Positions 2,968-5,715 of a stretch of 64,000 nucleotides of DNA are shown here, one piece after another. Source of the DNA: Xanthomonas bonasiae (GTDB taxonomy: Bacteria > Pseudomonadota > Gammaproteobacteria > Xanthomonadales > Xanthomonadaceae); contig NZ_JAFIWB010000002.1 of the NCBI RefSeq assembly GCF_017163705.1, forward strand, positions 248,001 to 312,000, in the 5' to 3' direction. The notes beneath the pieces are model-generated. The model was given only the letters and a program-made list of their open reading frames with translations. It was not told the DNA's origin and made no database searches. Position numbers and translations under genes: made by a program. Each line of letters opens with the position of its first letter. Within the stretch, counting starts at the first letter, position 1.

Positions 2968-5715
2968 TCACTCCGGATCGTAGTCCAGGTTCGAGGCCAG
3001 CCAGCGCTCGGCCTGCAGCAGCGGCACGCCCTTGCGCCGCGCGTAGTCGGCGACCTGTTCCTTGGTCAGACGCCCGACCACGAAATACTGGCTCTGCGGA
3101 TGGCTGAAGTAATAGCCGGACACCGCCGCGGTCGGCAGCATCGCGAAACTTTCGGTCAGCGCCATGCCGGCGTTGCGTTCGGCGTCGAGCAGCGCGAACA
3201 GGGTCTTCTTCTCGCTGTGCTCGGGGCAGGCCGGATAGCCGGGGGCAGGGCGGATGCCGCGGTACTTCTCGGCGATCAGCGCCTCGTTGTCCAGCGCCTC
3301 GTCGGCGACATAGCCCCAGAATTCGCGGCGTACGCGCTGGTGCAGGCGCTCGGCCAAGGCCTCGGCCAGGCGATCGGCCAGCGCCTTGAGCAGGATCGCG
3401 TTGTAGTCGTCGTGCGCCGCTTCGAACCGCGCCACGTGCGGCTCGATGCCGATGCCGGCGGTGACCGCGAACGCCCCGATCCAGTCCTGCTTGCCGCTGT
3501 CCCTGGGCGCGATGAAATCGGCCAGGCAGAAATCGGGGCGTTCGACGGGTTTGTCGACTTGTTGGCGCAGGAAATGCAGGGAATGGGGAATGGAGAATCG
3601 GGAATGGTCGAAAGCCGGAGCGTCGTCGCCCGATTCCCCATTCCCGGTTCCCGATTCCCGGTCCGTCAGGACCACAACATCGTCGCCCACGCTATTCGCC
3701 GGCCACAGCCCGAACACCGCCTTGGCGGTGAGCCACTTCTCGCCGACGATGCGCTTGAGCATCGCCCGCGCGTCGCGGTACAGGTCGCTGGCCTGCTGGC
3801 CGACCACCGCGTCGCTGAGGATCGCCGGGAACTTGCCGGCCAGTTCCCAGGCCTGGAAGAACGGGGTCCAGTCGATCAGCGGCAGCAGTTCCTCCAGCGG
3901 GTAGTCGTCGAACACGTGCAGCCCGGGCTGCTTCGGCGCCGGCGGGGTGTAGGCGTCCCAGCCGCCGTCGAAGCGCTGCGCGCGCGCCTTCTCCAGCGAC
4001 ACCAGGCGCTTGGCGTCGCCGCGGTTCCTGTGGCGCTGGCGGATCTCGGCGTAGTCGGCGTCGTTGGCGGCCACGAACGCGGCGCGCAGGTCCTTGGAGA
4101 TCAGCGACTGCGCCACGCCCACCGCGCGCGAGGCGTCCTTGACCCACACCGTCGGCGCGGCGTAGTGCGGGTCGATCTTCAGCGCGGTGTGCGCGCGCGA
4201 GGTGGTGGCGCCGCCGATCAGCAGCGGCATCGAGAAGCCCTGCCGCTGCATCTCGCGGGCGACGTGGCTCATCTCTTCCAGCGACGGGGTGATCAGCCCG
4301 GACAGGCCGATGATGTCGGCGTTCTCGGCGCGCGCGCGGTCGAGGATGGTCTGGGTCGGCACCATCACCCCCAGGTCGATCACGTCGAAGTTGTTGCAGG
4401 CCAGGACCACGCCGACGATGTTCTTGCCGATGTCGTGCACGTCGCCCTTGACCGTGGCCATGATGATCTTGCCGTTGGACTTGCCGGTGTCGCCGGTGCG
4501 CAGCTTTTCCGCCTCGATGTACGGCAGCAGGTAGGCCACCGCCTTCTTCATCACCCGCGCCGACTTGACCACCTGCGGCAGGAACATCTTGCCGGCGCCG
4601 AACAGGTCGCCGACCACGTTCATGCCGTCCATCAGCGGGCCTTCGATCACGTCCAGCGGGCGCGTGGACTGCTGCCGCGCTTCCTCGGTATCGAGTTCCA
4701 CGTAGGCGTCCACGCCGTGCACCAGCGCATGCGCCAGCCGCGCGCGCACCGGCTTGTCGCGCCAGCTCAGGTCCTCGACGCTGCTCTGGCCCTTCTTGCC
4801 CTTGTAGCGCTCGGCGATCTCCAGCAGGCGCTCGGTGCCGTCGCGGCGGCGGTTGAGGATCACGTCCTCCACGCGCTCGCGCAGGTCCGGGTCCAGGTCG
4901 TCGTAGATCGGCATGCCGCCGGCGTTGACGATGCCCATGTCCATGCCCGCGGCGATGGCGTGGTACAGGAACACCGAGTGGATCGCCTGGCGCACGGTCT
5001 CGTTGCCGCGGAACGAGAACGACACGTTGGACACGCCGCCGGACACGTGGCAGTGCGGCAGGGTCTGGCGGATGATGCGGGTGGCCTCGATGAAGTCCAC
5101 CGCGTAGTTGTCGTGCTCCTCGATGCCGGTGGCCACGGCGAAGATGTTGGGGTCGAAGATGATGTCTTCCGGCGGGAAGCCGACCTGCTCGGTCAGGATC
5201 CGGTAGGCGCGGCTGCAGATCTCCACCTTGCGCGCGCAGGTGTCGGCCTGGCCCTGCTCGTCGAACGCCATCACCACCGCGGCGGCGCCGTAGCGCAGCA
5301 CCTTGCGCGCGTGCTCGACGAACACCGCTTCGCCTTCCTTCAGCGAGATCGAGTTGACCACGCTCTTGCCCTGCAGGCACTTCAGCCCGGCCTCGATCAC
5401 GCTCCACTTGGAGGAGTCGACCATGATCGGGATGCGCGCGATGTCCGGCTCGGACATGATCAGGTTGAGAAAGCGGGTCATCGCCTTCTCCGAATCGATC
5501 AGGCCCTCGTCCATGTTGACGTCGAGGATCTGCGCGCCGCTGGCGACCTGCTGGCGCGCCACGTCCACCGCTTCCTCGTAGCGCTCTTCCTTGACCAGCT
5601 TGCGGAACTGCGCGCTGCCGGTGACGTTGGTGCGCTCGCCGACGTTGACGAACAGCAGGTCCGGGGTCAGCAGCAGCGGCTCCAGGCCGGACAGGCGGGT
5701 AATGCGGACGGACAT
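2968..5715 (-). CDS. metH: Methionine synthase, folate/cobalamin/activation subunit (split MetH, 915 aa)
   Basis: Carries the three C-terminal modules of cobalamin-dependent methionine synthase: the pterin-binding barrel (about residues 10-300, starting at [13 protein letters not shown]), the cobalamin module with the GDVHDIGKN motif (about 425) whose His coordinates B12, and the reactivation domain (about 590-915, [12 protein letters not shown] near 827). It passes the methyl group of 5-methyl-tetrahydrofolate via cobalamin to homocysteine held by the partner subunit. The homocysteine domain is encoded separately just upstream (5826-6944), so the enzyme is split. Residues about 685-712 are encoded by an in-frame palindromic repeat (3578-3661) that widens the start of the reactivation domain by about 18 residues compared with E. 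coli MetH. ATG at 5715. Confidence 0.95.
3578..3661. repeat. Palindromic heptad repeat inserted in frame within metH
   Basis: The left arm (3578-3607) is made of GGGAATGG/GGAGAATC heptads. The right arm (3629-3661) is its inverted counterpart (CCCGATTCCCCATTCCC and so on), with about 21 bases between. The 84-bp length is a multiple of three, so the reading frame continues and encodes a Gly/Ser/Asp-rich stretch on the coding strand. The same heptad family otherwise sits between genes (9.35, 21.6-21.7, 38.33, 43.4-43.6, 44.86-45.0, 49.56 kb). Confidence 0.85.

Follow-up and report, generated by a model that had tools for sequence, protein, structure and literature searches.

Short palindromes known from Rickettsia as RPE occur between genes and have also been found fused in frame in genes of conserved proteins (Ogata 2000, 2002; PMC2229807), and the accessible part of that work reports them to be neutral or slightly detrimental to enzyme function. 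As far as the accessible text of Rehm 2015 (PMC4692102) goes, GGGAATC heptads number 186 in Xcc and 183 in Xac, form 70 and 75 inverted pairs respectively, overlap an ORF at least partly in 11% (Xcc) and 7% (Xac) of cases, and are treated as mainly intergenic G-quadruplex repeats; in-frame protein segments, a hairpin site, replacement of one family by another and exchange were not found in that portion of its main text. For GTAG/CGTC REPs, in-frame copies have been described in genes that are conserved, among them those for tRNA synthetases in X. oryzae, and recB holds different REPs at roughly one position in X. campestris and X. oryzae (Di Nocera 2013, PMC3733652, accessible part). Coding palindromes of Nematomorpha mitochondria (PMC6649704) are likewise inverted repeats inside genes; they are, in the accessible description, perfect and seemingly maintained repeats of animal mitochondria, presented as distinct from other structure elements of coding sequence. 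Heptads, REPs within genes, including the same-site pair in recB, and RPE are known. Among titles and opening lines of abstracts in the open literature, with partial coverage, we found nothing that describes a single loop as a landing site used recurrently and exchangeably by several repeat families, or the loops of MetH or PurL as landing sites of repeats.

The locus lies in the window, the whole stretch of 64,000 nucleotides of Xanthomonas bonasiae DNA that was analyzed, and comprises the following features.

2968..5715, minus strand: metH, C-terminal subunit, 915 amino acids (NCBIfam PRK09490 and TIGR02082, both above cut-off)
residues 606-896 of the MetH subunit: Pfam match to PF02965
3578..3661, minus strand: in-frame heptad inverted pair predicted to encode a hairpin tip (sequence, frame, DNA fold and AlphaFold2 model)
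3633..3659, minus strand: 5′ arm in coding sense, GGGAATCGGGAACCGGGAATGGGGAAT (arm alignment)
3579..3605, minus strand: 3′ arm in coding sense, ATTCCCGATTCTCCATTCCCCATTCCC (arm alignment)

The subunit (5715-2968, minus strand) carries a pterin-binding, two B12-binding and an activation domain. The best-matching named MetH, that of Xanthomonas prunicola, is 91% identical in a scan that may omit very near genomes. A first reading of the sequence only had proposed that an 84-bp inverted pair of heptads interrupts metH without breaking its frame, and this is borne out: the arms (3579-3605 and 3633-3659; 27 nt each, 81% complementary, spaced by 27 nt) are read without a stop in the minus-strand frame 5715-2968, with 27 residues between the protein flanks GDDVVVLTD and LHFLRQQ. 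The coding-sense arm consists of the units GGGAATC-GGGAACC-GGGAATG-GGGAATC, the last two of which agree with the heptad rule (at least two tandem GGGANTN including one GGGAATC) and the second of which, GGGAACC, departs from it; the metH copy is too degenerate for the pattern used to find heptad clusters. As DNA the insert folds with z = -4.10 relative to 200 shuffled sequences, none of which folded as well.

In the genome itself (5.38 Mb in 89 contigs) GGGANTNGGGANTNGGGA has 610 matches, overlapping ones included, and its reversed control has 3. The insert is thus a member of an abundant, dispersed repeat family in which inverted pairs are also seen. It is the same family as the GGGAATC heptads in the accessible account of Rehm 2015 (PMC4692102). 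When whole metH was compared with the genome, 42 of the 46 non-self matches fell on the insert (among the 40 of 909 candidates that were scored, several places being counted on both strands). The insert resembles RPE, as described in the accessible sources, in being a palindrome in frame in genes of conserved proteins, here MetH, PurL and ValS; it differs from RPE by its host lineage (Xanthomonadaceae) and its sequence (heptad family), and here several families share one loop and the segment is apparently swapped between species.

AlphaFold2, applied to the activation domain with 36 sequences (mean pLDDT 86, pTM 0.85), places strands at model residues 109-115 and 137-144, and because the block of low pLDDT (residues 121-130, mean 48) sits between them the insert is predicted to code for the tip of a β-hairpin; in the model the second strand already begins with the final residues of the insert. 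Since the remaining activation domain follows in the same frame, the segment is presumably translated, and would form a disordered tip linking the two strands. The nearest solved MetH, 3bul, which we take to be the E. coli enzyme, aligns with an 18-residue gap at this place, in agreement with the earlier statement that E. coli MetH is much shorter there.

Four further repeats were noted in the window.

6980..7004, minus strand: heptad array within the adjacent ArsR/methyltransferase ORF 6941-7939, at its 3′ end (sequence, family match)
43422..43623, unstranded: second heptad inverted pair, 36-nt arms, 97% complementary (repeat scan of the window)
1727..1926, unstranded: GGGAGAGG-box repeat in two copies, resembling MetH-tip elements of other genera (repeat scan)
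24174..24252, unstranded: GTAGGAGCGGCTTCAGCCGCGAC palindrome, REP-like, resembling MetH repeats of some g16 and g32 genomes (repeat scan)

The first of these corrects the sequence-only reading, which had taken every other copy in the window to be intergenic: this array is contained in the 3′ end of ORF 6941-7939 (minus strand), about 12-20 residues before its C-terminus. This ORF, for an ArsR-type regulator/methyltransferase, is located upstream of metH and thus has a heptad-coded stretch of its own.

The segment proved variable among orthologues. In the own genus (g1, 20 genomes) the tip is built of heptads in 18 of 20, namely eight of form A, five of form B and five of the GGGACYS type; the exceptions are G012 with a long non-repeat tip and G001 with a bare one. 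Elsewhere in the family other repeats or bare tips are found. The tip region was taken from 124 of 395 family genomes (20 + 14 + 30 + 60, the last 60 picked to include long spans), and because of this uneven sampling the class frequencies are not population estimates: 149 rows comprise 61 AT-type heptad, 11 C-type heptad, 19 GGGAGAGG-box, five REP, 15 other and 38 bare tips, bare meaning 17 or fewer tip residues. Labels were set by hand for L136, L138, L205, L210 and L197 (box) and for L124, L169, L183 and L042 (AT-heptad). Not counted among the 149 are L048-L088, which lie outside the family, the partial L152, six rows with repeat-free tips for which the gene had not been extracted (L024, L037, L040, L047, L149, L198) and seven that were read separately (L014, L022, L033, L044, L097, L151, L160), of which three have heptads, two of them probably from one genome, and four are bare. 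Palindromes at the tip across the family include GGGACYS heptads, GGGAGAGG-box elements and GTAG-headed REPs, or there are none; most named Stenotrophomonas and Pseudoxanthomonas rows are bare. The tip DNA of L187 contains GTAGGAGCGACGTCAGTCGCGACTGACGTCGCTCCTAC and that of L138 contains GGGAGAAGGTGCCCGAAGGGCGGATGAGGG...CCAACCCCTCTCCCGATGGGAGAGGGG. GTAG-headed REPs are present in the tips of L187 and L195, and the MetH REP of some g16 genomes resembles the GTAGGAGCG-headed Xanthomonas REPs (Nunvar 2010, PMC2817692, accessible part). The insert of the window lacks the GTAG head beside a short imperfect palindrome that marks GTAG REPs, and in this is unlike the REP/RAYT elements described there.

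The insert is therefore not private to its source genome: such inserts recur across the family, are replaced and are apparently exchanged. The variable length of the tip even outside the family might suggest an ordinary low-complexity loop that resembles repeats by chance, or an assembly artefact, but DNA-level palindromes, the hundreds of genomic copies of the heptad unit and the presence of the insert in many independent assemblies refute this, and we give it practically no chance. Both suggestions of the earlier reading were upheld in this comparison: conserved enzymes (MetH, ValS and, at two sites, PurL) do receive in-frame segments from a palindromic repeat family, as with RPE, and the loop is indeed tolerant, its tip taking several repeat families or none; the two are compatible.

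Two side observations concern individual tips. In L041 (a Lysobacteraceae MAG) further sequence, with the peptide VGWVERSETHQ, lies between two C-type heptad arms, which suggests an insertion into an insertion. L107 (G012) and L108 (G001) are sister rows whose genomes, of 3.5 and 3.7 Mb, are nearly free of heptads; the former has a long non-repeat tip, possibly a decayed insert, and the latter is bare, which suggests that the tip insert was lost after the repeats had disappeared from the genome.

It could be supposed that the palindrome is kept for a nucleic-acid role in metH, as a G-quadruplex, attenuator, recombination signal or determinant of mRNA stability. Palindromic folding was seen in each of the eight repeat tips examined (z from -3.3 to -10.0), and heptads form G-quadruplexes in vitro according to the accessible text of PMC4692102. 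Two long non-repeat tips, however, are without significant fold (z of -1.2 and -0.7), many orthologues are bare, the repeat families have no common sequence, and L122 (form A of g17) has, by eye, only three clean G-tracts in its left arm. We reject the G-quadruplex as a conserved reason, and a nucleic-acid role in general seems unlikely.

The kind of insert tends to follow the repeat stock of the genome that carries it. Repeat patterns were counted in 72 genomes hand-picked to cover the tip types; the pattern CTYCCCNNNNGGGRAG matched at about control level and was replaced by another. Genomes with C-type metH comprised seven dominated by C-type and three by AT-type heptads, while those with AT-type metH comprised none and 29 (Fisher p = 8e-6); within the own genus the figures were 4 + 1 and 0 + 13 (p = 0.0016). 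The three genomes that break the rule are G005, G279 and G205, the C-type label of the last (L126) resting on thin grounds. All 39 genomes with heptad metH had at least 44 heptad matches, and seven of eight bare genomes had six or fewer; two heptad-rich genomes have no heptad tip, the bare G170 (179 matches) and G295 (218), whose 18-residue non-repeat tip is one residue above the bare cut-off. Corrected for phylogeny, heptad metH went with a heptad-rich genome in 6:0 comparisons with four undecided (median p 0.031, range 0.016-0.125), heptad-rich being set at 40 or more matches after the counts were seen; C-type versus AT-type gave 4:0 independent pairs with three undecided and was not significant (p = 0.125).

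Similar associations were seen for the other families. The GTAG REP pattern was found in 14 of 72 genomes, including all three with that REP in MetH (p = 0.006), although two of the three matches in G227 are the metH copy itself; G115 and G140, with another REP in MetH, had zero matches to it. The box pattern occurred in 63 of 72 genomes and so discriminates only within genera: in g29 the box-tip genomes G382 and G047 had 42 and 70 box matches and the bare G306 and G374 none, and in g10 G257 had 14 and the bare G028 none. G218 has a box-type tip yet zero box matches.

Some of the distribution could be accounted for by a single ancestral insertion, inherited vertically, diverging in place and occasionally deleted. 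Forms A and B are both found in g1 and g17, the left-arm frame is alike, by eye, in forms A, B and C, and for form A the tips diverge by 0.216 across the two genera, more than inside either (0.152 and 0.113); for form B the difference between genera (0.199) is not clearly greater than that within (0.119 and 0.217). Against this, different repeat families occupy the tip, and a MetH tree of 144 distinct rows built without the tip columns needs at least 45 changes of type and at least 21 between bare and filled; it is a quick tree, 55 of whose 141 inner branches were starred and 38 left open. In g17 alone (31 rows) the forms change 11 times on the gene tree versus 10.8 for shuffled labels (ratio 1.02), while 17 control windows of the same gene retain signal, with ratios of 0.18-0.80, also when the tree is built without the window in question (median 0.30; the windows kept were those with at least six rows in the smaller group). 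The tip forms of g17 are unlinked from the rest of metH. Likewise, a tip-free DNA tree of g1 and g17 together (50 rows) requires 21 changes among forms A, B and C, as against 20.7 with shuffled labels. Recombination may have blurred the gene tree, but the control windows argue against blurring as the cause. The genus g17 is probably also Xanthomonas; its member G035 shares an identical tip with L014, a record of X. arboricola.

Individual pairs point the same way. In L122 and L166 nearly identical flanks (300 bp; 6/297 differences upstream, 4/300 downstream) enclose tips that are unrelated, with differences in 66 of 123 aligned columns. With the type changes and the match to shuffled labels, this pair leads us to reject vertical inheritance as the only process, and we rate the reading as very improbable. 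Between L089, the metH of the window (form A), and L092, its counterpart in G002 (form B), there are 5 differences in 1983 sites from -2100 to -60, and the tips are unrelated; the differences adjoining the tip (7/57) continue downstream to the 3′ end of the gene (22/600), so the exchanged tract need not be short and may reach that end. Identical tips (0/105) occur in L089 and L090, whose genes differ by 3.6%, a weak observation alone since 8% of control windows are equally alike. The tips of L121 and L122 show a single difference in 108 sites, a likeness reached by 3% of control windows; directly upstream the count is 0/60, compared with 13/90 further upstream, and downstream it is 3/60 and then 10/90. 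Nearest neighbours by the 60 bp on either side of the tip share its form in 59% of rows (chance 39%), those by other parts of the gene in 32-48%. As form sharing is highest within about 60 bp of the tip, the tip has probably been swapped between species, mostly in short recombination tracts.

Heptads are well suited to coding sequence. Of the 16 GGGANTN units the 12 not ending in A are stop-free in all six frames, arrays of GGGANT(C/G/T) have no stop in any of them, and the C-type units GGGACCC and GGGACCG are also open; heptad arrays are therefore pre-adapted to coding. The unit length of 7 has no divisor in common with the codon length of 3, so that on a given strand all reading frames of an array yield a single cyclic heptapeptide, for example GNRESGI or DSRFPIP.

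The tip is under weak protein constraint. Its pN/pS in four sets was 0.35, 0.67, 1.13 and 1.40 compared with 0.07-0.22 in the rest of the gene (the sets took all form A rows, all g1 form B rows and 11 of 15 g17 form B rows), and in each of the four its pS was below that found elsewhere in the gene, which is what recent exchange would produce. The lowest value, that of form A of g17, and the coexistence of two forms in two genera would suit an adaptive protein module, tuning for instance the docking of a partner, with forms A and B under balancing selection. The other three sets, however, range from 0.67 to 1.40, peptides of unrelated sequence substitute for each other, and tips are bare in most of the named rows of two genera mentioned above, so that such a module appears quite improbable. 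Judged from the sequences, the likeliest role of the insert would be that of near-neutral filler.

Other enzymes carry heptads in frame. Among 61 heptad clusters (six in the window and 55 in 40 stretches of the same genome, 33 of these around 100 of the 610 GGGANTNGGGANTNGGGA matches and seven chosen as good matches to the metH insert), two are in frame in PurL and one in ValS; five further flagged clusters are candidates only. PurL was found in 63 of 63 chosen genomes. Its site 1 holds AT-type heptads, C-type heptads or GGGAGAGG-box inserts (e.g. L307, L345, L346, L347) or is short (L306, L311, L353), and site 2 holds both heptad types or is short (L312, L357); in the first set each site was read in 29 of 30 loci, and in a further 20 loci site 1 was read in ten and site 2 in one. 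For ValS there is the heptad of the own genome, a heptad-like segment in L327, a box-like one in L332 and a plain one in L337, thin evidence since the ValS pattern matched only three of 30 loci. PurL shows the same loop behaviour as MetH at two sites, and ValS probably does.

Some observations stand beside these. One of the 61 clusters seems to code for the start of a protein, presumably LpxB; at 3244-3345 of L258 the N-terminal residues of this putative LpxB (KAGSRESGLGIGNGG...SPIPNPGAATLRIALVAGEASGD) appear to be encoded by a heptad inverted pair. PurL site 1 of L355, L308 and L312, from some g28 and g43 genomes, has another repeated peptide, like PAQRAGRSDDLRGSA. The PurL match G227:C17:50735-51652 has one in-frame TAA.

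We consider it likely that short palindromic repeats both land and are exchanged at the MetH hairpin tip, which is permissive towards them and where they act as near-neutral filler. Repeat families carried by a genome would land copies at the tip, and only in-frame, stop-free copies would survive; heptad arrays should be favoured, being stop-free in six frames and giving the same cyclic heptapeptide in each. The tip would then be translated and evolve under weak protein constraint, be swapped between related species by homologous recombination in tracts of about 60 bp on either side, some looking longer, and be replaced by other families, decay, or be deleted where the genome loses its repeats. 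Loops of PurL, and probably ValS, would act alike. No target-site duplication was seen at the inserts. Di Nocera 2013 (PMC3733652), in its accessible part, gives one pair of REPs at the same site, whereas here there are several families, many genera, dependence on the genome stock and signs of short-tract exchange.

A bolder extension, which we hold only tentatively and regard as doubtful, is that the palindromes themselves make the entered loops self-exchanging cassettes: their hairpin DNA would provoke breaks or stalled forks, these would be repaired by very short tracts from relatives, recombination at the tip would greatly outpace that elsewhere in metH, and a first occupancy would leave a lasting landing pad for other repeat families. 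If so, protein loops would gain a built-in route for horizontal turnover of sequence. Since the tip is decoupled from its own gene, it can be tested directly whether palindromes provoke recombination of themselves.

Trees or domain models should not be built through such segments. As empty, filled, replaced and apparently decayed states of the tip are all visible, the family offers a natural experiment on how proteins gain insertions. A repeat that normally lies between genes has become part of methionine synthase in plant-associated bacteria, and in a large bacterial family extragenic repeats repeatedly supply new segments to core housekeeping enzymes at the same loops.
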